64,000 nt of DNA from Arcobacter sp. (GTDB lineage: Bacteria > Acidobacteriota > Terriglobia > Bryobacterales > Bryobacteraceae): assembly GCA_020723085.1 (NCBI GenBank), contig DYJN01000017.1:1-64000 (forward strand), read 5' to 3'. The notes beneath the pieces are model-generated. The model made no database searches. It had not been told where the DNA came from and saw only the letters and a list, made by a program, of their open reading frames with translations. A program made the translations under genes and the position numbers. Of this stretch, positions 33,004-64,000 are shown in pieces; within the stretch, counting starts at the first letter, position 1; each line of letters starts with the position of its first letter.

Positions 33004-34836
33004 TCAACGCATCTGACCCCGGCTGCGGAGCGTGGCCTTCGTCTCATATACCTGGCCATCCCGCCGGTACTTCACGGCTACCGTCTCGCCCGGCTTCTTC
33101 GCGCGCAGGGCGTACGTGAAATCGTACAAGTTCGAGATCGGCTTGCCGTCGAACTCGACGATCACGTCGCCGCCCTTCAGTCCGGCTGCCTCGGCGGGCG
33201 AGCCTTTCATCACGTCTGAAAGCCGGAAGCCGTCCTTCGATTGGCCCATGTCCGGCACCGATCCGAACCAGGCTCCAGAACCGGCGCTGCCTGCCATCGC
33301 CGGCTGCTGCGGCATCTGCACTCTCACATATTGGGGGCGCGGTTCGGCGCCCGCCAGCCGCTCCGCCACGCGCGCCACCACCTCCAGCAGCTGCGCCGCC
33401 GCGGCGGCGTTGATCTTGTCCCAGGTGTCCGACGGCTTGTGATAGTCGGCGTGCAATCCCGAGAAGAAGAAGAGCACCGGAACCTGCTTGTTCACAAACG
33501 AGAAGTGGTCGCTCGACCCGTAGCCCCCCTGGTCGGAAAAGTCGAACTGGAGCGGCGAGCCCGCTCTGGACTCCTCCAGGATCTTCTTCAACGAGTCGCC
33601 CGTGCCAGTGCCGCCCACGTAGACCTTGCCGTTCTGGATGCGTCCGATCATGTCCATGTTGATCATGGCGGCGGTCTTCTCCAGCGGAAGCAGCGGATGG
33701 TTGACGTAGAAGCTCGATCCGATCAGCCCCAGCTCTTCGCCGGAGAAGGCCAGAAACAGGATGCCCCGCTTCTGTTTCGGCCGCCCGGCGAAGTAAGCGG
33801 CCAGCTCGAGCAGCCCCGCCGTTCCCGACGCGTTGTCGTCGGCCCCGGGGTGGATGGCCTTGCCGGCCTGGTCCGGCGCCATCGAGCTCTGCTCGCCCAA
33901 GCCGAGATGATCGAAATGCGCGCCGATGATGATGGACTCGTCCGTCTCGCCGGGCAGGTAGGCGGCCACGTTCGGCGAACTGCTGCGGCGGCGGACGACG
34001 TCGGCTGTCACTTCCACGCGGAGCCCGGCCAGCGCGGCGGGTCTCGGCTTCAGCGTGCGGTCGGTCTCTTCCATCCATTCCTTCAGGCTGAGCCCCGACC
34101 GCTCCAGCCACCTCTCCGCCACGGCGGCGCGCACCTGCACGAACGGAATGTCAGCCGAGGTCGGGCCGACGCGCCCCGAGAAGCGGTCCAGACGGTCTTC
34201 GTCGCCTGAGTGGTTCGGCAGGTCGTTCACCATCAGGACCGCCGCCGCGCCGTGGAACTTGGCGTTGACGGCCTTGTTCTGCACCTGCGCGTGGGATGTG
34301 TAGACGCGGCCGGCGAACGGGCTCTTCTCGTCGAACTCCTGCGGCTCATGGCGCAGAACCAGAACGATCTTTCCCTTGGCGTCGATGCCGGCGTAATCGT
34401 CATAGCCGTACTCCGGGGCGGTGATGCCGTAGCCGGCGAAGACCACCTCGCCGGCGGCGCGGCCGTTGCCGGAAAAGTTCAGCGGCTGGAAGTCCTGGCC
34501 GGCAACGAGGGCGCGGGGCTTACCGCCGCCGTTGGATTCGGCCAGCCGGTTTCCCTTCCCGAGACTGGCGCTGACGGTGACCTCGAACCGCTGGAAGTAA
34601 TCCCGTTGTCCCGGCGCAGGCTTCAGCCCCAGTTCGCGGAAGCGGGCGGCGATCCAGCGGGCGGCCTTCTCATTCTCCGGCGTGCCGGTCAGCCTTCCCT
34701 TGAGCGAAGGCGCGGCGAGGAATTTCACGCTCTCGCGGTAGCTCTGCTCGCTGATGACGCCGGGCCGGAGAGCGGCGCCAGCCAGCGCAGCGGCAAGCAG
34801 CCCCGCTGTGAGGATCGAAGCAAGTCTGCGGGTCAT
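33004..34836 (-). CDS. Secreted M28 family metallopeptidase with PA and PDZ domains
   Basis: A 610-residue exported aminopeptidase-like protein. A signal peptide (RLASILTAGLLAAALAGAAL) precedes a PA-like insert (FAGYGITAPEYGYDDYAGID; LRHEPQEF). The di-zinc M28 core shows SIIIGAHFDHLGLG, HPGADDNASGTAGLLELA (bridging Asp), AFSGEELGLIGSSFYV with the catalytic Glu pair, INMDMIG, and DHFSFVNKQVPVLFF with a His ligand. A C-terminal PDZ domain (SPAEAAGLKGGDVIVEFDGKP) may guide substrates. It is transcribed 15 nt after the DsbA-like gene and probably acts in the periplasm or outside. Specificity (leucine or broader) is not evident. Confidence 0.92.
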   Translation of the reverse strand: MTRRLASILTAGLLAAALAGAALRPGVISEQSYRESVKFLAAPSLKGRLTGTPENEKAARWIAARFRELGLKPAPGQRDYFQRFEVTVSASLGKGNRLAESNGGGKPRALVAGQDFQPLNFSGNGRAAGEVVFAGYGITAPEYGYDDYAGIDAKGKIVLVLRHEPQEFDEKSPFAGRVYTSHAQVQNKAVNAKFHGAAAVLMVNDLPNHSGDEDRLDRFSGRVGPTSADIPFVQVRAAVAERWLERSGLSLKEWMEETDRTLKPRPAALAGLRVEVTADVVRRRSSSPNVAAYLPGETDESIIIGAHFDHLGLGEQSSMAPDQAGKAIHPGADDNASGTAGLLELAAYFAGRPKQKRGILFLAFSGEELGLIGSSFYVNHPLLPLEKTAAMINMDMIGRIQNGKVYVGGTGTGDSLKKILEESRAGSPLQFDFSDQGGYGSSDHFSFVNKQVPVLFFFSGLHADYHKPSDTWDKINAAAAAQLLEVVARVAERLAGAEPRPQYVRVQMPQQPAMAGSAGSGAWFGSVPDMGQSKDGFRLSDVMKGSPAEAAGLKGGDVIVEFDGKPISNLYDFTYALRAKKPGETVAVKYRRDGQVYETKATLRSRGQMR

Positions 34837-54156: not shown

Positions 54157-55398
54157 TTGGCACGCAGGGTGGTTGTCACCGGTGTCGGCGTCATTTCGGC
54201 GCTCGGGCTTAGCGCGGCCGAAACCTGGCAGGCGATCCTCGAGTCCCGATGCGGGATCGGTCCGATCACGCAGTTCGACTGCGAGAAGTTTTCCTGCCGG
54301 ATCGCAGCCGAGGTGAAGGGTTTCGATCCTCTTCGGTACTTCGAGAAGAAGGAACTGAAGAAGGTCGGCCGTTTCATCCAGTTCGCGGTCGCCGCTTCGG
54401 ACGAGGCGATGAAGTCGAGCGGGCTTCAGGTGACCCCGGCTGTCGCCGAGAGGGTGGGCGTGTACATCGGCAGCGGCATCGGCGCATTCGAAGTCATCGA
54501 GCGCGAGCACCGCACGCTGCTCGAGAAGGGTCCGGACCGCATCAGCCCCTTCTTCATCCCGGCTTCGATCGTGAACCTGGCCTCGGGCAACGTCAGCATC
54601 CGCGCGGGCGCCAAGGGCCCCAACTCGGCTACCGCCACAGCCTGCACGACGAGCGCCCACTGCGTCGGCGATTCGTTCCGCCTCATCCAGCACGGCTACG
54701 CCGACGCGATGATCTGCGGCGGCGCCGAGGCATGCATTACGCCCATGGGGATTGGCGGCTTCGCCGCCATGCGCGCGCTTTCGACGCGCAACGACGAGCC
54801 AGCCCGGGCATCGCGCCCGTGGGACCGCGACCGCGACGGCTTCGTTGTCGGCGAGGGCGCGGGCATCCTTATCCTTGAAGAACTGGAGTTCGCCCGCAGC
54901 CGCGGCGCCGCAATCCTGGCCGAAGTCGTGGGCTACGGCATGAGCGGAGATGCCTACCACATCACCGCTCCCTGCGAGGACGGCGATGGCGCTTACCGCG
55001 TCATGCGCGACGCCATGCGCGACGCGGGCATCAAGCCGGATCAGGTCGACTACGTCAACGCCCACGGCACTTCCACGCTGGTCGGCGACGTGGTCGAATG
55101 CATCGCCCTGAAGCGCACCTTCGGGGAGCACGCCTTCAGGATCGCAATCAGTTCCACGAAGTCCATGACCGGACATGTTCTCGGGGGCGCCGGCGGACTG
55201 GAGGCGGCGTTCACCGTCTTCGCCATCCGCGATCAGATCGCCCCTCCGACCATCAACCTGGACAACCCCGACGAGCGGTGTGATCTGGATTTCGTGCCTC
55301 ACAAGGCCAAGCCCATGAAGATCGAGTATGCGCTGTCGAACTCGTTCGGCTTCGGCGGCACCAATGGCAGCCTCATCTTCAAGCGGTACTCGGATTAG
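54157..55398 (+). CDS. fabF: Beta-ketoacyl-ACP synthase II
   Basis: A 413-residue condensing enzyme of fatty-acid elongation. It has the Cys-His-His triad: TATACTTSAHCVGDSF (nucleophile Cys), NAHGTSTLVGD and SMTGHVLGGAGGLEA. The thiolase-fold segment YIGSGIGAFEVIE and NSFGFGGTNGSL at the C-terminus are also typical. It starts at TTG 54157, supported by AGGAGA 6 nt upstream; an ATG start in the same frame is not available near the right length. It is 60 nt after acpP and therefore probably co-transcribed with it. Confidence 0.96.
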   Translation: MARRVVVTGVGVISALGLSAAETWQAILESRCGIGPITQFDCEKFSCRIAAEVKGFDPLRYFEKKELKKVGRFIQFAVAASDEAMKSSGLQVTPAVAERVGVYIGSGIGAFEVIEREHRTLLEKGPDRISPFFIPASIVNLASGNVSIRAGAKGPNSATATACTTSAHCVGDSFRLIQHGYADAMICGGAEACITPMGIGGFAAMRALSTRNDEPARASRPWDRDRDGFVVGEGAGILILEELEFARSRGAAILAEVVGYGMSGDAYHITAPCEDGDGAYRVMRDAMRDAGIKPDQVDYVNAHGTSTLVGDVVECIALKRTFGEHAFRIAISSTKSMTGHVLGGAGGLEAAFTVFAIRDQIAPPTINLDNPDERCDLDFVPHKAKPMKIEYALSNSFGFGGTNGSLIFKRYSD

Positions 55399-55455
55399 CC
55401 GCGCGCGTTGGCGGCGGCGGACAGGGCCGGCTCCGGCCGGCGGGAGTCGGAATCG

Positions 55456-56229
55456 ATGAAGATCCTTGTCGCTCTGAAACAGGTGCCGGCGAGAGACCTG
55501 ACCGTGGAGGCGGATGGCGCCCGCGCCTGGATCGATGAGTCCGCGCTCAGCCACGAGATCAATGAGCCGGACGCCTACGCCCTGGAGGCGGCGCTGCAAC
55601 TGAAAGAATCTTCCGGCGGCGAAGTGGTGGCCGTCTCCGCCGGTCCCGCGCGCGTGCAGACGGCCCTGCGCGAGGCCCTCGCCAAAGGCGCTGACCGCGC
55701 CATCCACATTGCCGTTGAAGGAGAAGCGGCGCGCGGCACGGACCCGTCCGTCACGGCAATGCTGCTGGAAGCTGCCGTCCGCGGGGAGCAGCCGCAGCTC
55801 GTGCTGACCGGCCTGCAATCCGAAGACACGGGAAGCGGGCAGACAGGCGTGATCCTGGCCTCCCGGCTCGGCTGGCCGCATGCCACGCTCGTCGTGGCCA
55901 TCGAACCCGGCCCGGACTCCGTGCGCGTGAAGCGCGAACTCGAGGCGGGCTGGTTTCAGTACGTCACGATTCCCTGGCCCGCCGTGCTCGCCGTTCAGAG
56001 CGGCATCAGCCGCCTCCGCTACGCCACGCTCATGGGGATCAAGCGGGCCAAAACAAAAGAGATCCGTTCTGTGGCGCCGCCCCCGGAGGCCGCGGCGCAG
56101 CCTAACATCCGGCTGAAGGGACTTGCCGAACCCCGCCGCCTGCGGCAGACGCAGTTCCTGGCAGGCTCTCCCGCCGAACAGGCGGCGCAACTGGTGGAGA
56201 AACTCCGTTTCGAGGCGCGGGTGCTATGA
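55456..56229 (+). CDS. etfB: Electron transfer flavoprotein subunit beta
   Basis: A 257-residue adenine-nucleotide-binding subunit of the ETF heterodimer, which passes electrons from acyl-CoA or other dehydrogenases to the quinone pool. It shows KILVALKQVPARDLTVEADG at the N-terminus, INEPDAYALEAALQLKE, LREALAKGADRAIHI, and LVLTGLQSEDTGSGQTGVILA, the AMP-binding loop. The C-terminal arm (RRLRQTQFLAG) would contact EtfA. ATG 55456 is supported by GGGAG about 9 nt upstream. It is coupled to etfA by a 4-nt ATGA overlap and follows fabF by 57 nt. Confidence 0.95.
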   Translation: MKILVALKQVPARDLTVEADGARAWIDESALSHEINEPDAYALEAALQLKESSGGEVVAVSAGPARVQTALREALAKGADRAIHIAVEGEAARGTDPSVTAMLLEAAVRGEQPQLVLTGLQSEDTGSGQTGVILASRLGWPHATLVVAIEPGPDSVRVKRELEAGWFQYVTIPWPAVLAVQSGISRLRYATLMGIKRAKTKEIRSVAPPPEAAAQPNIRLKGLAEPRRLRQTQFLAGSPAEQAAQLVEKLRFEARVL

Positions 56230-57197
56230 GCGGGATTCTGGTTGTCCTGGAGCGGCAGGGCGGCGCCTGGCACAAGATGTCATTTGAAGCGCTGGCTGGC
56301 GCGCTCGAACTCGGCCGCGCCACCGGCCTCTCCGTATCGGTCTGCGTGCCCGCATCCGGCGCCCGTGAAGCGGCAGCGGAAGCCGCCGTGGCGGGAGTGG
56401 ACGGGGTGACGGTCCTCGAACACGAAGCGCTGGAGGCGTACGCGGCCGACGCCTGGGTGGAGGCGCTGGCAGAGTGGATCGCCGGGGTCCGGCCGGACTA
56501 CGTCGTCTTCCCCCATACTTACCAGACGCGCGATTTCGCTCCCGCCCTCGCCGCCCGGTTCGGCCGCACGCTGATGGCCGATTCCACGGGCTTCTTTGTG
56601 GAAGGCGGGCTGCCGGTGTTCGAGCGGCCCCTGTTCCAAGGCAAACACATCGGCCGGTTTGTGTTTGAAACGCCCGCGCCGAATTTTGTTTCCTTTCAGG
56701 CCGGCGCCTTCCGCGGCGTTCCGCCCGCCGGAGGCGCCGCGCCCGTGGCCGTGAAGCGGCCCTCTCTGGACGCGGCCCGCATCCGGCAGCGGCCAGAGCC
56801 GCCGTTCCGCGAGACGGCGCAGGCCGTTGATCTGTCCGCAGCCGAGCGCATCGTCGCCGTGGGCCGCGGCATTCAGGACGAGGGCAACCTGGAGCTCGCA
56901 CGGCAGCTCGCCGCCGCCTTCGGCGCCGAACTCGCCGCTTCCCGCCCCATCATCGACAGCGGCTGGCTGCCGGCGGACCGTCAGGTCGGCAGCTCCGGGC
57001 AGACGGTCGCGCCCAGGCTTTACATAGCTCTGGGCATTTCTGGCGCCCTTCAGCACATCGTCGGCATGAAGGGCGCGGGCTGCATCGTCGCCATCAACCG
57101 CGACGCCAAGGCGCCGATCTTCGAGATCGCCGACTATGCCCTGATCGGCGATCTGTTCGAGATCGCTCCAGCACTGATCGGCGCCCTTTCGTCCTGA
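56226..57197 (+). CDS. etfA: Electron transfer flavoprotein subunit alpha
   Basis: A 323-residue FAD-binding subunit. The C-terminal FAD domain has AVGRGIQDEGNLELARQLAA, SRPIIDSGWLPADRQVGSSG (with the conserved Arg and Ser), QTVAPRLYIALGISGALQHI, and MKGAGCIVAINRDAKAPIFE; the N-terminal domain follows the EtfB-like fold (YVVFPHTYQTRDFAPALAAR). No ETF-ubiquinone oxidoreductase gene follows: downstream is non-coding DNA and a cyclophilin on the other strand, so its electron acceptor must be elsewhere. Start ATG overlaps the EtfB stop. Confidence 0.95.
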   Translation: MSGILVVLERQGGAWHKMSFEALAGALELGRATGLSVSVCVPASGAREAAAEAAVAGVDGVTVLEHEALEAYAADAWVEALAEWIAGVRPDYVVFPHTYQTRDFAPALAARFGRTLMADSTGFFVEGGLPVFERPLFQGKHIGRFVFETPAPNFVSFQAGAFRGVPPAGGAAPVAVKRPSLDAARIRQRPEPPFRETAQAVDLSAAERIVAVGRGIQDEGNLELARQLAAAFGAELAASRPIIDSGWLPADRQVGSSGQTVAPRLYIALGISGALQHIVGMKGAGCIVAINRDAKAPIFEIADYALIGDLFEIAPALIGALSS

Positions 57198-58119: not shown

Positions 58120-58149
58120 TTGATTTAAAGAATATTCGAATGATAGAAT
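58120..58149 (+). promoter_or_regulatory. Promoter of the Hyf-like operon
   Basis: TTGATT (58120-58125) and TAGAAT (58144-58149), 18 nt apart, lie in an AT-rich island that stands out from the GC-rich surroundings. The transcript would start near 58156, so the ATG at 58150 would not be in it; this supports the later ATG at 58171 as the true start. Confidence 0.6.
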
Positions 58150-58170
58150 ATGCTTTGTAGCTCTTCCTGT

Positions 58171-60228
58171 ATGGACCCTGCCCACGCTGCTCCAACGGCC
58201 TACGGTCTGGCGCTTTCTCTGTTCCTGGCCGGCTGGCTTCTCAGCCTCGTGCTCCATGTCTGGCGCGGGACGAGCCTGCGGCTGGCCGGCTTTGTGCACT
58301 GGTTCGCCCTGGCCGGCTCAGCGGCCGCAGCCGCAGCCGGCGCGGCCGCACTGGTCCAGGATGGATCCTGGCGCTGGGCCGCGCCCGCTTCCGCCGCCGG
58401 GTTCTCCGTCTCCGTGCGGCTGGATCCGCTGTCTGCGTTTTTCCTGCTGGCGCTGGCGGCGCTGGCGCTGCCGGTGTCGGCCTACAGCCTGGGTTACATC
58501 CGGCACGGCGCCTACGGGCGCAGCCCGGTGCTGCGGAGCGGCCTGCTGAATCTGCTGCTGGCGGCGCTGGCGCTGATCTTCACGGCCAATCATGTGATTC
58601 TGTTTCTGGTCGCCTGGGAAGCGGGCGTAGCCGCCAGTTACTTTCTGGTCACCGCATCGCACGAGCAGGAAGAGACGCGCCACGGCGGGTGGATGTTCCT
58701 GCTGATGTCGCGGGCGGGCGCGGGCATGATCTACATCGGGCTTCTGATGCTGAGCGTGTCGGCCGGATCACTGGACTTCGACCGGCTTTCCGGCGCCGGC
58801 AGCGCCATGCCGGGCGCGGCCTCGGCCGCCGCGTTTCTGCTGCTGTTTTTCGGCTTCGGCGTCAAGGCGGGCGTGATCCCGTTGCATGCCTGGCTGCCCG
58901 CCGCCCATCCGGTGGCGCCGAGCAACGTCTCCTCGCTGCTGTCCGGCATCGTGATCAAGACGGGCATCTACGGCATCGCACGCGTCTGTTTCGATTTTTA
59001 CAGCGCCCTGCCTCCCTGGGCGGGCATGGTGGTGCTGGCCGCCGGGGTCATCTCCGGGCTTCTCGGGGTGCTGTACGCGCTGATGGAACACGATCTGAAG
59101 CGGTTGCTGGCCTTCCACAGCATCGAGAACATCGGCATCATCCTGATGGGCTTCGGCGGCGGCATGCTGCTGCGGTCGTATGGATATCCCAAACTGGCGG
59201 CGCTGGCGCTGGCGGCCGGACTCTTCCACACGCTGAACCACGCGATGTTCAAAGGGCTGCTGTTCCTGGGCGCAGGCGCTGTCGTGCATGAGACAGGCAC
59301 GCGGAACATGGAAGAGATGGGCGGCCTGATCCGCAGGATGCCGCGTACGGCGCTCTACTTCCTGGTGGGAGCCGTGGCCATCTCGGGCCTTCCGCCGCTG
59401 AACGGTTTCGTCAGCGAGTGGCTGACCTATCAGGTTCTTCTGGCAGGATTCGGAACCACAGCCGAGGTGACGCGGGTCGCCTTCCCTGCCGCCGGCGCCA
59501 TGCTGGCGCTCACCGCGGCGCTGGCCGCGGCATGCTTCGTGAAAGCATACGGCATTACGTTCCTGGCGCTGCCCCGCTCGGAGCACGCGCGCGAGGCGGC
59601 TGAATGCGCGCCGTCAATGCGCGCGGGGATGGCATGGCTCGCGCTGGCCTGCATTCTGCTGGGTCTGGGCGCGCCGTGGTTTATGCAGGTCTTCGACGGC
59701 GTCACGATGCAACTGCTGAAGACGCGGATTTCGCTGGCCGCCGTATCGCTCTCCACTGCTTCCATCCAGGCTCCGCCGCCGAGGACCGGCGCCGCTTCTC
59801 CGCTGGCGCTCGGCCTGCTGCTGGCCGCGTTCGGCCTCGTGCCGTGGATTCTGTGGCTGCTCCGGCGCCGGCGCGTGACCACCGCCGCGGGGCCCGTCTG
59901 GGACTGCGGCCTGCCGGCCCTCAGCGCCTCCAACGAATACACGGCCACAGGATTTTCAAAGTCGATCCGCATGATCTTCAGCGTTATTTTCCGGCCGAGG
60001 CGGGAGATCCAGCCGCGGTTCGAGGCCTCCCCCTATTTCCCCAGCGAGATCCGTTTCGAGTCCGAGGTCCGTCCCGCTCCGGGCGCTTCACTGCACTCCG
60101 CCGTGCAGGAGGCGCTGCTGCGCCTCGCGCTGCGGATGCGGCAGATTCAGGCCGGCAGCATCCACGCGTATCTGGCCTACATTTTCGTGACGCTCCTTCT
60201 GCTGCTCCTTTTCGGGGTGCGATCATGA
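58171..60228 (+). CDS. hyfB: Hydrogenase-4 component B-like proton-translocating subunit
   Basis: A 685-residue polytopic protein of the NuoL/M/N (Mrp-antiporter) family, about the length of HyfB. It has VKAGVIPLHAWLPAAHPVAP with a conserved Lys in a membrane helix, LLSGIVIKTGIYGIARVC with a second Lys, the HSIENIGIILMGFGGGML helix, NHAMFKGLLFLGAGAVVHET and a discontinuous-helix region. This subunit would pump or conduct protons in a group 4 hydrogenase or related complex. Start: ATG 58171 rather than 58150, as a promoter -10 ends at 58149. Its stop overlaps the HyfC start in ATGA. Gene order is B-C-E-F-G. Confidence 0.88.
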   Translation: MDPAHAAPTAYGLALSLFLAGWLLSLVLHVWRGTSLRLAGFVHWFALAGSAAAAAAGAAALVQDGSWRWAAPASAAGFSVSVRLDPLSAFFLLALAALALPVSAYSLGYIRHGAYGRSPVLRSGLLNLLLAALALIFTANHVILFLVAWEAGVAASYFLVTASHEQEETRHGGWMFLLMSRAGAGMIYIGLLMLSVSAGSLDFDRLSGAGSAMPGAASAAAFLLLFFGFGVKAGVIPLHAWLPAAHPVAPSNVSSLLSGIVIKTGIYGIARVCFDFYSALPPWAGMVVLAAGVISGLLGVLYALMEHDLKRLLAFHSIENIGIILMGFGGGMLLRSYGYPKLAALALAAGLFHTLNHAMFKGLLFLGAGAVVHETGTRNMEEMGGLIRRMPRTALYFLVGAVAISGLPPLNGFVSEWLTYQVLLAGFGTTAEVTRVAFPAAGAMLALTAALAAACFVKAYGITFLALPRSEHAREAAECAPSMRAGMAWLALACILLGLGAPWFMQVFDGVTMQLLKTRISLAAVSLSTASIQAPPPRTGAASPLALGLLLAAFGLVPWILWLLRRRRVTTAAGPVWDCGLPALSASNEYTATGFSKSIRMIFSVIFRPRREIQPRFEASPYFPSEIRFESEVRPAPGASLHSAVQEALLRLALRMRQIQAGSIHAYLAYIFVTLLLLLLFGVRS

Positions 60229-61175
60229 CCGCCACCGTGCTCCACGCCGTTCTGCAAGGCCTGCTGCTCCTGCTGCTGAGCCCGCTGCTGTCAGGCCTGA
60301 TCCGGACCGCCAAGGCGCGGCTGCAGACCCGCCGCGGCCCGTCGCCCCTGCAGCCTTACCGCGATCTGGGGAAGCTGCTGCGCAAGGGAATGGTGATTCC
60401 GGAAACGGCCTCGCCCGTCTTCGCCGCCGCGCCCTTTGTGGTGTTCTCGACGACGCTTCTCGCTGGCCTGCTGGCGCCCACCGTCTTCGCCGCAGCGCCG
60501 CTGAGCCAGTTTGGCGGCGTTCTGGCGCTCGTTTACCTGCTGGGACTCGGCCGGTTCTTCCTCGCGCTCGCCGCGCTCGACACGGGCAGCGCGTTCGGAG
60601 GAATGGGCTCAAGCCGGGAAATGACGATCGCCGCGCTGGCCGAGCCCGCGTTGATGCTTGCCGTGTTCACCGTGGCCCTGACCGCCGGCTCCACGGACCC
60701 GTCGAGGATGGCGCAGGCAGCCATCGGCCAGAGCTGGCGTTTTCTGGCGCCCTCGCAGATGCTGGCATTCACGGCCCTGTTTGTCGTGCTGCTCGCCGAG
60801 ACCGGCCGCATCCCGGTGGACAACCCCGCCACGCATCTCGAGCTCACCATGATCCACGAGGCGATGATCCTCGAATACTCCGGTCCGTGGCTGGCTCTCA
60901 TCGAATGGAGCGCGTCGATCAAGCAGATGGTGCTCCTGACGCTGCTGGCGAACCTGTTCATTCCCTTCACGCTGGCCTCGGCGCCGGGCGTGCCGGCGAT
61001 TCTTTCCGCAGCCGCCCTCTATCTGCTCAAACTGCTGCTGCTGGCGGCTGCCGTGGTGCTGGTGGAGACGACGAACGCGAAGATGCGCCTGTTCCGCGTG
61101 CCCGAGCTGCTGTCGGTGGCTTTTGTGCTCGGCGCTCTCGCGCTGATTTCCACATTCCTGTTTGGAGGCCGCTAG
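60225..61175 (+). CDS. hyfC: Hydrogenase-4 component C-like (NuoH-type) membrane subunit
   Basis: A 316-residue membrane protein related to NuoH and HycD, which connects the hydrophilic arm to the proton pumps. It shows LLSPLLSGLIRTAKARLQTR, RGPSPLQPYRDLGKLLRKG, the AGTGGSTD-type helix GSREMTIAALAEPAL (in part), and the loop ETGRIPVDNPATHLELTMIH that carries the charged residues of the quinone-like channel. The loop AMILEYSGPWLALIEWSASI follows. Length matches E. coli HyfC (about 315). Start ATG overlaps HyfB stop. A GAGGGA ribosome-binding site for the next gene follows directly at its end. Confidence 0.92.
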   Translation: MTATVLHAVLQGLLLLLLSPLLSGLIRTAKARLQTRRGPSPLQPYRDLGKLLRKGMVIPETASPVFAAAPFVVFSTTLLAGLLAPTVFAAAPLSQFGGVLALVYLLGLGRFFLALAALDTGSAFGGMGSSREMTIAALAEPALMLAVFTVALTAGSTDPSRMAQAAIGQSWRFLAPSQMLAFTALFVVLLAETGRIPVDNPATHLELTMIHEAMILEYSGPWLALIEWSASIKQMVLLTLLANLFIPFTLASAPGVPAILSAAALYLLKLLLLAAAVVLVETTNAKMRLFRVPELLSVAFVLGALALISTFLFGGR

Positions 61176-61185
61176 AGGGACCGCC

Positions 61186-61872
61186 ATGCCACTGCTATCC
61201 GACCCGATTTTCGGACAGACCATGATCACGCTGATGGCGGCCATCGTGCTCGTGCTCCAGATCACGCTGGTCGCCCAGAAATCGCTGGTCTCCAGCATCT
61301 ATGTCTTCGCCCTGCAATCGTTCCTTCTGGCGGCGATCGCGGGCACGATCGCATGGTTTACCGGCGCCGGCCACATCTACATGGCTGCCGTGCTCACGTT
61401 CCTGCTGAAGTCCCTGCTGCTGCCGGCCATCCTTATCCGGCTGGTGGAGCAGATCCGGATCGAACACGAGATGAAGCCGTTGCTCAACGTGCCCGTTTCG
61501 GTGGTGATCTCCGGCATGCTGACGCTGCTGGCCTATGTGGTAGCGGAGCCGCTCCAGCAGCAGATGAGCTTCGGCAGCCCCTCCTCGCTGGGCCACAATA
61601 CGCTGCCCGTGGCGGTAGCGCTGTTCCTGATCGGGTTTTTCCTGATCGCGAACCGCCGCAAGGCGCTGTCGCAGGTGCTGGCGCTGCTGTCGCTGGAAAA
61701 CGGGCTCTTCCTGGCCGCGATTTCGCTCACCTATGGCATGCCTTTGATCGTGGAACTGGGCGTTTTCTTCGACGTTTTGGTGGCCGTGCTTGTGCTGACG
61801 ATCCTGGTGGGGCGGATCCGCGAGGCGTTCGACTCAATGGATGTGACGCGGCTGAGCCGGCTGCGGGGGTAA
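61186..61872 (+). CDS. hyfE: Hydrogenase-4 component E-like membrane subunit
   Basis: A 228-residue protein of about six membrane spans, of the HyfE family, whose C-terminal part is related to NuoK. It includes QITLVAQKSLVSSIYVFALQ, LTFLLKSLLLPAILIRLVEQ, PLLNVPVSVVISGMLTLLAYV and LALLSLENGLFLAAISLTYG with the conserved Glu in LSLENG; the tail is GRIREAFDSMDVTRLSRLRG. It begins 10 nt after HyfC with GAGGGA just upstream. The subunit is present in Hyf (hydrogenase-4) complexes but absent from hydrogenase-3 (Hyc), so it separates this complex from the Hyc type. Confidence 0.88.
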   Translation: MPLLSDPIFGQTMITLMAAIVLVLQITLVAQKSLVSSIYVFALQSFLLAAIAGTIAWFTGAGHIYMAAVLTFLLKSLLLPAILIRLVEQIRIEHEMKPLLNVPVSVVISGMLTLLAYVVAEPLQQQMSFGSPSSLGHNTLPVAVALFLIGFFLIANRRKALSQVLALLSLENGLFLAAISLTYGMPLIVELGVFFDVLVAVLVLTILVGRIREAFDSMDVTRLSRLRG

Positions 61873-61881
61873 GGGGGATCG

Positions 61882-63363
61882 ATGGCTCTCGCGTGGCTTC
61901 TGGCAATTCCGCTGGCTGGCGCGGCAGCGACAGGCGCTGCCCGGCGGCGCGCCTGGATGGAGTTCATCTACTGCCTGGGGGCAGGCGCCGCGCTGGCGGC
62001 ATCGGCCTTTCTGGCGGCGGCGGTGCTCTCCGGCGGACCGGTGAGTTTCCTGAATGGGTTTCTCTATGCTGACGCGCTCTCGGCGCTGGTGACGCTGCTG
62101 ACGTGTGCGGTGTGGGCCTTCTCGGCTCCGTATACCGTTGGGTATCTGCGGGGCGCGCAGCCTGCGGGCGCGCCCGCGCGGCTCGGCATCCGCGAGCTGC
62201 GCCTTTATTACGCGCTCTCGCACCTGTTCGTGTTCACGCTGCTGGGCGTTTCCCTGACCGGCAACCTGGGAATCATGTGGGTGGCGCTGGAGGGAGCGAC
62301 GCTGGCCTCCGTGTTCCTGGTGGCCTTTTACGGGAAACCCACATCGCTGGAAGCGGCCTGGAAGTACGCCATCATCGGCGGCGTCGGCCTGTCCATGGCG
62401 CTGTTCGGAACTATTCTGACCTACTACGCCGCCTTTGAAGGCACGGGCATGGAGACCTGGGAGGCCCTGAACTGGCCGTTCCTGATCGCCGCCGCGCCGA
62501 GCTTCAACCCGCTGGTGATGCGTCTGGCCTTCATCCTCGTGCTTCTCGGCTACGGCGCCAAAGCGGGGCTGGCGCCGATGCACACATGGAAGCCCGACGC
62601 CTACAGCGAGGCGCCGGCGCCGGCGGCGGCGATGATGGCGACGGCGATGCTGAACTGCGCGCTGTACGGTCTGGGACGGTTCTTCCTGCTTTCCGCACGC
62701 GCCACCGGTCCTGGGATGCCGTCGAAGCTCCTGATCGTGTTCGGCATCCTCTCGATCGCCATCGCCACGCCATTCATCCTGGTGCAGAAGTCTTACCGGC
62801 GCCTGCTGGCCTACTCCTCGATCGAGCATTGCGGCATCATCACGCTCAGCATCGGCTTCGGCGGTCCGCTCGGATCCCTGGGCGCGGTCCTGCATATGGC
62901 CTTTCATTCCCTGGCCAAGCCGCTGCTGTTCTTCTCCGCCGGCAACGCTCAGCAGCATACGGGCGACGATTCGCTCAGAAACACCGCCGGCGGGCTGGTT
63001 CACGCGCTTCCCTGGAGCGGCGCGGCGCTGTTCGCCGCCGTGCTGGCCGTCACCGGCACGCCGCCGTTTCCCCTGTTCCTCAGCGAGTTCACCATGCTCC
63101 GCGCCGGCTTCGCCCAAGGGCATGCGTGGGCGTCGATCACCGCCGTCATCCTGCTGGTTCTGATCTTCTCGGGCATGTTCGGGCACGCCGCCCGGCTGCT
63201 GCTGGGACCGGTGCCGGATCTTCCGGCGGGAGATCGCAACCGGTGGACCGTATATCCGCTCGCCGTTCTGAGCGTGGTGTTGCTCGTGCTGGCTTTCTGG
63301 ATCCCCGCTCCGCTCTCTTCCCTGCTCGCGCAGGCTGCCAGCCTGCTGGAGGTGAAACCATGA
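61882..63363 (+). CDS. hyfF: Hydrogenase-4 component F-like proton-translocating subunit
   Basis: A 493-residue polytopic protein, a second NuoL/M/N-type subunit. Key parts: YALSHLFVFTLLGVSLTGNL, MWVALEGATLASVFLVAFYG with the acidic Glu of the first pump helix, LGYGAKAGLAPMHTWKPDAY with a Lys pair, EAPAPAAAMMATAMLNCALY, LAYSSIEHCGIITLSIGFGG and HSLAKPLLFFSAGNAQQHTG. The YGAKAGLAPMHTW and SIEHCG signatures match HyfF. It is 9 nt downstream of HyfE and overlaps the large-subunit gene by 4 nt (ATGA). It is slightly shorter than the E. coli protein. Confidence 0.92.
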   Translation: MALAWLLAIPLAGAAATGAARRRAWMEFIYCLGAGAALAASAFLAAAVLSGGPVSFLNGFLYADALSALVTLLTCAVWAFSAPYTVGYLRGAQPAGAPARLGIRELRLYYALSHLFVFTLLGVSLTGNLGIMWVALEGATLASVFLVAFYGKPTSLEAAWKYAIIGGVGLSMALFGTILTYYAAFEGTGMETWEALNWPFLIAAAPSFNPLVMRLAFILVLLGYGAKAGLAPMHTWKPDAYSEAPAPAAAMMATAMLNCALYGLGRFFLLSARATGPGMPSKLLIVFGILSIAIATPFILVQKSYRRLLAYSSIEHCGIITLSIGFGGPLGSLGAVLHMAFHSLAKPLLFFSAGNAQQHTGDDSLRNTAGGLVHALPWSGAALFAAVLAVTGTPPFPLFLSEFTMLRAGFAQGHAWASITAVILLVLIFSGMFGHAARLLLGPVPDLPAGDRNRWTVYPLAVLSVVLLVLAFWIPAPLSSLLAQAASLLEVKP

Positions 63364-64000
63364 GCCGTCCCGGATCCGCCGCTTTCGATTCGCTCATGGC
63401 GGAGGTCCGTCCGCTTGCCGCTTCCGCATGCGAGAAGACGCCTTGGGAAGTCCGGGCGTTTCTTCCGGGCGCAGATGACAGGCAGGAGATCGCCGCGGCG
63501 CTGCTCGACAGGGGATGCCGCTTCGCCTCTGTCTTTGCAGAGGACCGCCGCGCGCAGGAGCGCGCCTACTATCTCTATGATGTGGTCGAACACCGGGACG
63601 ACCACCGCTATCTGGTCATCCGCTACCGGGTGGCGCCGGAACAGCCCCGGTTCCCCTCCATCTCCCTGCAGGCGCCTGCCGCCAACTGGATGGAGCGAGA
63701 GACTCAGGACTGGTTCGGAATCGAGGCGGAGGGCCACCCCAACCCGCGCCGCGTGGCGCTGCATGACCACTGGCCCGGCGTCCACCCGCTTCTGAAGGAC
63801 TTTCCCATCGACGCGGTGCTGCCTCCGCTGGAGGGCGACCCTCACATCTTCCGCCAGACGATCGGCGAAGGCGTGTTTTACGTCCCCGTCGGGCCGGTGC
63901 ATGCAGGCATCATCGAGCCGGGCCATTTCCATTTCGCAGTGGCCGGCGAACCGGTGATTTACCTCCAGCTCCGCTTGTTTTACACGCATAAAGGCGTGGA
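63360..64000 (+). CDS. hyfG: Hydrogenase-4 large subunit-like (HyfG), truncated by the window end
   Basis: The first 213 residues of a HyfG/HycE-type protein, a NuoC-NuoD fusion. The NuoC-like part contains ERETQDWFGIEAEGHPNPRR and VALHDHWPGVHPLLKDFP. The large-subunit part begins FYVPVGPVHAGIIEPGHFHF and continues to LRLFYTHKGVE. The next expected element, the first Cys-x-x-Cys that holds the Ni-Fe centre, lies beyond the window, so hydrogenase activity cannot be judged. It would be followed by small-subunit and iron-sulfur genes. Start ATG overlaps the HyfF stop. Confidence 0.85.
   Translation, partial: MSRPGSAAFDSLMAEVRPLAASACEKTPWEVRAFLPGADDRQEIAAALLDRGCRFASVFAEDRRAQERAYYLYDVVEHRDDHRYLVIRYRVAPEQPRFPSISLQAPAANWMERETQDWFGIEAEGHPNPRRVALHDHWPGVHPLLKDFPIDAVLPPLEGDPHIFRQTIGEGVFYVPVGPVHAGIIEPGHFHFAVAGEPVIYLQLRLFYTHKGV

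Follow-up and report, generated by a model that had tools for sequence, protein, structure and literature searches.

An operon for a putative Ehr complex without [NiFe] ligands, and for its ArsR-type regulator, in an acidobacterial genome

The operon and its surroundings

The stretch of DNA analyzed here (the window) comprises the first 64,000 of the 69,802 bases of contig C90, part of an acidobacterial genome of 4.19 Mb in 181 contigs. An operon related to those of group 4 [NiFe] hydrogenases runs off the end of this window on the forward strand; a preliminary description had given its gene order as hyfB-C-E-F-G, and this order is confirmed by family matches that lie far beyond chance. The first gene encodes a HyfB-like antiporter subunit with an ND3-like C-terminal extension (58171 to 60228, with an alternative ATG at 58150; NCBIfam hydrogenase 4 subunit B, E = 6e-196). 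It is followed by the genes for a HyfC/NuoH (ND1)-like membrane anchor (60225 to 61175; Pfam NADHdh, E = 5e-41), a small HyfE-like membrane subunit with a NuoK-like C-terminal half (61186 to 61872; NCBIfam hydrogenase 4 membrane subunit, E = 2e-33), a HyfF-like antiporter subunit (61882 to 63363; NCBIfam hydrogenase 4 subunit F, E = 1e-123), and a 529-residue EhrL/HyfG-like large subunit that joins a NuoC- to a NuoD-like part (63360 to 64949, cut at 64000 by the end of the window; Complex1_49kDa, E = 1e-43). Since contig C90 extends 5.8 kb past the window, the remainder of the operon can be read there, and the question of whether it specifies a hydrogenase or an energy-converting-hydrogenase-related (Ehr) complex can be answered. 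This remainder consists of a 293-residue fusion of a HyfH-like with a HyfI/NuoB-like subunit (64953 to 65834 of C90) and of an ArsR/SmtB-family regulator with a GTG start codon (65846 to 66208; NCBIfam HTH_metalloreg, 85 bits against a cut-off of 55). Downstream of the regulatory gene, on the opposite strand, lies a gene that reads as ferrochelatase-like.

The genes for B, C, E, F, G and HI adjoin one another, so that the small, the ND1-like and the antiporter-like subunits are co-encoded, and all seven frames of the operon are open and unbroken. The 4-nt overlaps that had been described for the operon as a whole exist (as ATGA) at the B/C and F/G junctions, while the remaining junctions are gaps of 3 to 11 nt. 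The absence of hyfA and hyfD, correctly noted before, is a property of the class: nearly all complete related loci are made up of B-C-E-F-G plus I or HI, and lack D. From its gene content, the operon is predicted to encode a complete six-subunit Ehr complex together with its own ArsR-type regulator.

The AT-rich promoter region seen earlier is real as well, and it contains the only ATTC-N8-GAAT of the 64-kb window (58134 to 58149, forward strand; chance alone would give 0.59 matches over this length). This element, the core of AATATTCGAATGATAGAATATGC, is a candidate ArsR-type operator at the head of the operon, and the alternative ATG of the hyfB-like gene follows it immediately. Further upstream, a fabF-like gene and then etfB- and etfA-like genes occupy positions 54157 to 57197. 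The etfBA pair (55408 to 57197) adjoins the operon and was considered as an electron donor; as it is not among the recurrent neighbors of related operons, we do not link it to the Ehr genes.

The vacated [NiFe] site and the affiliation of the complex

The preliminary description had proposed that the nature of the complex be judged from the C-x-x-C pairs of the large subunit past position 64000, the cysteines of HyfI, the hyp maturation genes, and a tree with group 4 hydrogenases. The window does stop ahead of the place of the first of these motifs, its last complete codon being that for large-subunit residue 213; what follows there (residues 230 to 240) is S-G-D-T and not C-x-x-C, and at the second site N-L-S-Y-S-G stands where D-P-C-x-x-C is expected. 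Whether aligned with E. coli HycE or, in a multiple alignment, with HyfG of the same species, the protein has S233, T236, S523 and G526 at the positions of the four [NiFe] cysteines, none of which is retained. It ends with SYSGTDR, at the point where group 4 large subunits end after processing, and has no C-terminal maturation peptide of the HycE/HyfG type. The replacements are themselves conserved: 19 diverse sequences from the phylum carry S/A-G-D at the first site, a minority of them having Cys at its first position, and N-K-S-F-N-x-S-Y-x-G at the second, and a wider set of relatives exhibits the same motifs with few departures.

A whole-genome search detected no HypC, only a 39-residue fragment of HypD, and no [NiFe] large subunit above its cut-off. 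This search covered HypC and HypD; remains of HypE and HypF were read on contig C55, where a shattered hyp cluster (about 33,050 to 34,300; L123 in our numbering of loci) consists of the start of HypF (about 20 residues), the end of HypD, a truncated HypE, and a HycI-type protease, with HypF and HypE named by reading the sequence and by acylphosphatase and AIRS domain matches. Full-length HypD proteins are present in several other genomes of the same family. Taken together with the shattered cluster, this indicates that the lineage probably once had a [NiFe] hydrogenase and has since lost it, an event that has no direct bearing on the Ehr operon.

The broken hyp genes would also be in keeping with the operon being the decayed remnant of a hydrogenase, for which a stop codon soon after position 64000 had been named as the sign. 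The large-subunit frame continues to 64949 and the operon beyond it, all seven frames are intact, and the replaced motifs are invariant or almost so across phyla. Furthermore, dN/dS among the close relatives L038, L039, L041 and L042 amounts to 0.06 to 0.10 for the large subunit and 0.08 to 0.13 for HyfF (some other comparisons, saturated or fragmentary, were left out), values that point to purifying selection on this branch. We therefore give the idea of a decayed remnant practically no credence. An ordinary group 4 [NiFe] hydrogenase of the hydrogenase-4 or formate hydrogenlyase (FHL) type would fit the gene content and order, and also the structural model: the fold nearest to the AlphaFold model of the large subunit (pTM 0.83, mean pLDDT 78.5, with low confidence at residues 145 to 209 and at the C-terminus) is that of HycE in FHL (7z0s_E, TM 0.82), followed by NuoCD of complex I. 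Against this stand the loss of all four cysteines, the broken maturation set, and the missing maturation peptide, and this explanation can in our view be set aside with near certainty. Of the two possibilities raised at the outset, the Ni-Fe-less one was thus the right one, and the operon almost certainly belongs to the Ehr type. Lacking the [NiFe] site, the predicted complex would be expected neither to produce nor to consume H2.

Ehr complexes, for which Marreiros et al. (2013) is reportedly the source cited, form an already known, functionally uncharacterized family. Members have been reported from Nitrospira (PMC10284858), Saganbacteria (PMC6349859), CPR bacteria (PMC7304191) and Sulfobacillus (PMC4378227), in each case as a group 4-like complex of unknown function that is devoid of the CxxC motifs or of Ni-Fe ligands. 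The operon studied here shares with them the group-4-like subunit set, the antiporter subunits, and a large subunit without either CxxC motif; what sets its branch apart is the fusion of ferredoxin and small subunit, with one ferredoxin cluster left in it, and the inclusion of an ArsR gene among those of the operon. In a maximum-likelihood tree of large subunits that was calculated without the motif columns and assessed by SH-aLRT support, its nearest neighbors are Acidobacteriota (L038, L039, L041) and a member of the Verrucomicrobiota (L043), and all of these fall into a large clade, separate from E. coli HyfG and HycE, that also contains Nitrospira moscoviensis, Rokubacteria, Omnitrophota, Saganbacteria, Bacillota, Pseudomonadota, Actinomycetota and CPR members. 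The earlier label "Hyf-like" consequently holds for gene content and order but not for the descent of the large subunit. With E. coli Hyf and Hyc, the operon has homologous B, C, E, F, G, H and I genes in nearly the same order in common; unlike these systems, it lacks hyfA, hyfD, the Ni-Fe ligands, the C-terminal processing peptide and an FdhF-type partner, and its HyfH and HyfI are fused.

Within the clade, a subgroup from Thermincola, Desulfotomaculum, and some Acidobacteriota and Myxococcota (L059, L063, L064, L066, L069, L071, L073, L077, L083, L018 to L020) still possesses all four Ni-Fe cysteines, with a variant second motif, NKSFELCY[SA]C, in which Glu-Leu replaces Asp-Pro. Desulfosporosinus (L076) displays an intermediate state (ISGIC...ELSYAC). 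The tree requires more than one change in the state of the Ni-Fe ligands.

Electron carriers, ion paths and the likely mode of action

The fused small subunit carries the full set of four ligands for a proximal cluster of the hydrogenase type (C163, C166, C230, C260); the tandem cysteines of cluster N2 of complex I are not found in it, their place being taken by C163-x-x-C166. In its ferredoxin domain the first cysteine triplet is gone, and C50, C73, C76 and C79 remain, which by the standard 2[4Fe-4S] ferredoxin topology we take to form one complete cluster, expected to be the one nearer the proximal cluster; C83 survives from among the ligands of the lost cluster. Sister loci L039 to L044 have the same four ferredoxin ligands and no complete outer cluster. 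Two ferredoxin clusters occur in L045 and in most Ni-Fe-bearing relatives, and the ferredoxin domain is entirely missing in most Ehr members. The proximal cysteines are complete in all scorable relatives outside a Patescibacteria-type branch (see below), except in the unclear rows L061, L065 and L102. Because the remaining wire, though shortened from the outside, is conserved in the branch under study, its clusters favor a redox role.

The membrane arm is equally well preserved. In the HyfB-like subunit, E150, K232, K263, K310, H357, K361, E416 and C579 are 98 to 100% conserved in 59 relatives, and the same degree of conservation, up to invariance, applies to E137, K161, K227, H234, H342 and K346 of the HyfF-like subunit in 73 relatives and to the E-channel residues E140, E192, D199, E206 and E217 of the ND1-like subunit. 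K75 and E171 of the HyfE-like subunit are conserved in relatives as well, and the conservation of ion-path residues and E-channel acids overall ranges from 0.9 to 1.00 across 59 to 73 relatives. K232 corresponds to the lysine of TMH7, which is a leucine in HycC of FHL (PMC9474812), and C579, the equivalent of HycC C537, represents the retained ND3-loop cysteine. Mapped onto HycE with an offset of 12 between PDB chain and protein numbering, the large subunit keeps His181 and Glu186 of the beta1-beta2 loop and the canopy Arg470. The canopy Asp of hydrogenases and complex I, which is apparently strictly conserved (PMC9474812), is replaced by Asn521 in this protein and by Asn in almost every other Ehr member.

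In these features the operon resembles Pyrococcus MBS and complex I, in which the Ni-Fe cysteines are gone while the chamber and the three-loop coupling region are kept (PMC7684303, PMC9474812). MBS and complex I moreover reduce hydrophobic substrates in that same chamber (PMC7684303), and this precedent, together with the ferredoxin ligands kept in this branch and its neighbors and the retained coupling and ion-path residues, inclines us towards viewing the complex as a redox-driven ion pump. Donor, acceptor, direction and ion are what we infer in the following scheme. An electron donor would feed the remaining ferredoxin cluster, and the electrons would pass via the proximal cluster to an acceptor in the former Ni-Fe pocket that is hydrophobic and most likely a quinone; movement of the surrounding loops would then, through the loop region and the E-channel, drive H+ (or Na+) via the two antiporter-like subunits.

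Several observations weigh against a redox pump. The head-group pair that marks a complex I-type quinone site was sought and rejected, as His38 and Tyr87 of T. thermophilus Nqo4 align with Ile185 and Gly234; in this respect, as in the lack of a NuoEFG module, the complex is unlike complex I. The replacement of the canopy Asp counts in the same direction, as do the absence of the ferredoxin domain from most relatives and the existence of Patescibacteria relatives whose membrane arm is kept although hardly any cluster ligands are left. Neighbor analysis of related operons revealed no conserved redox partner gene, and a formate dehydrogenase or NuoEF partner of the Saganbacteria style was likewise discarded, being absent from the part of the contig that was read and from the recurrent neighbors of close relatives.

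MBS, which is also devoid of Ni-Fe ligands and quinone residues and has retained a large chamber (PMC7684303), provides a model for a different enzyme, a reductase that would act on polysulfide or another small substrate of this kind independently of quinone. The proximal cluster of MBS is held by three cysteines; the complex studied here, differing in this from both MBS and complex I, keeps all four, with the CxxC spacing of HycG, so that an open iron site with chemistry of the MBS type is not to be expected. In addition, the host genome is of an aerobic type with COX1 genes, and we consider such a reductase improbable.

The main rival to the redox-driven pump is a redox-independent ion transporter, either an Mrp-like antiporter or a regulated channel, in which the clusters would be structural or regulatory leftovers that erode from the outside in. 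The family does present such a series, from two ferredoxin clusters through one to none, and finally to the loss of the proximal cluster. In CPR Daviesbacteria, Levybacteria, Staskawiczbacteria and Magasanikbacteria, and in two further loci, three of the four proximal ligands have been lost, D or T standing instead, and none of the four is left in L100 and in L107 (a MAG labeled Methanosarcina); small subunits of this Patescibacteria type, short of three to four proximal cysteines, are encoded at L072, L086, L093, L094, L096, L098, L100, L107 and L149 to L159. Such a protein is the sole NuoB-type protein found in four of eight genomes tested, and a fresh sample of 380 genomes of Patescibacteria yielded 14 matches, 11 of which, all with the full stretch, have lost three to four ligands (the others being one partial match and two four-Cys proteins of another type). 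The membrane arm persists with almost no cluster ligands, the ion-path residues being kept almost without exception in the eight original loci. At three loci (L086:1-2693, L096:1-4723, L100:2-4489) the Ehr operon comes immediately after ATP synthase genes that share its strand, while at L072 such genes are nearby on the opposite strand (all four named by reading of the sequences). These loci, and the lack of a conserved redox partner gene in the neighbor analysis, speak for redox-independent transport; the conservation of all eight ligands of two clusters in the branch under study, and of the proximal ligands in the great majority of the family, speaks against it, and we hold it to be rather unlikely for the complex at hand.

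Judged by the ligand pattern, the Patescibacteria-type branch either functions without electrons or has a different metal site, held by Asp and other residues. Tentatively, and with more doubt than conviction, one may regard this branch as a complex I relative without electron transfer that has at times been appended to the ATP synthase operon, and the acidobacterial complex as an intermediate on the way from a hydrogenase to a pure ion transporter. A search of open-licence PMC literature returned no cofactor-free relative of complex I; as far as that literature goes, the graded erosion of cofactors with loss of the proximal cluster in Patescibacteria, the ATP synthase neighborhood there, and the candidate ArsR operator are new. 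The graded losses offer a natural test of whether redox chemistry and ion movement are separable in the complex I superfamily, and a precise account of the remaining cofactors, the unchanging residues and the accompanying regulator makes the function of Ehr complexes testable.

The ArsR-type regulator, distribution and annotation

The ArsR protein probably silences the operon through the ATTC-N8-GAAT element until a signal appears. At L040 and L042, arsR heads the Ehr operon, with ATATTC-N8-GAATAT directly before it, and ArsR genes stand beside the Ehr operon in Rokubacteria (L060, L065, L074) and Chloroflexi (L112, L090) as well. The operon has its gene set in common with M. tuberculosis Rv0081-Rv0087, annotated as formate hydrogenlyase, at whose head stands Rv0081, an ArsR-type regulator. 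Rv0081 controls Rv0082-Rv0087, a locus that bears the annotation of a hydrogenase complex and has been linked to hypoxia (PMC6901956). The plasmid pRZP3 of Rhodococcus sp. ZPP (L118, 6161 to 13449) bears an Ehr operon with SGDT and NKSFNLSYAG as the Ehr motifs of its large subunit, and likeness to this operon suggests that the mycobacterial loci annotated as formate hydrogenlyase may be of the Ehr type too. The order I-B-C-E-F-G of the Rhodococcus locus recurs in the Rokubacteria loci with an ArsR gene; the order B-C-E-F-G-HI-ArsR found here differs from that of the mycobacterial and Rhodococcus loci.

The preliminary description had considered such an operon unexpected in an aerobic-looking acidobacterium. 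The host does have three COX1-type oxidase genes, yet homologs (E ≤ 1e-70) turned up in roughly one in four of the 297 genomes sampled from the phylum, a tally of our own that may include some matches to other types of group 4. Many aerobes have homologs too, among them Nitrospira, Cupriavidus, Rhodococcus and Azospirillum, so that the surprise is not supported. Ehr complexes are widespread in respiring bacteria and are often annotated as hydrogenase or formate hydrogenlyase; their operons are a warning against inferring H2 metabolism from them.

A match is also present in 85 plasmid records, many of them from soil aerobes. On a Variovorax plasmid (L122, 1 to 14003), two Ehr-type operons lie within about 14 kb, one of them followed by a gene for a 4Fe-4S-binding protein and the other with a small subunit that lacks the ferredoxin domain. 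A tandem pair of HyfB-like antiporter genes precedes the Ehr operon at L041:2457-6745 and L045:1962-6430.
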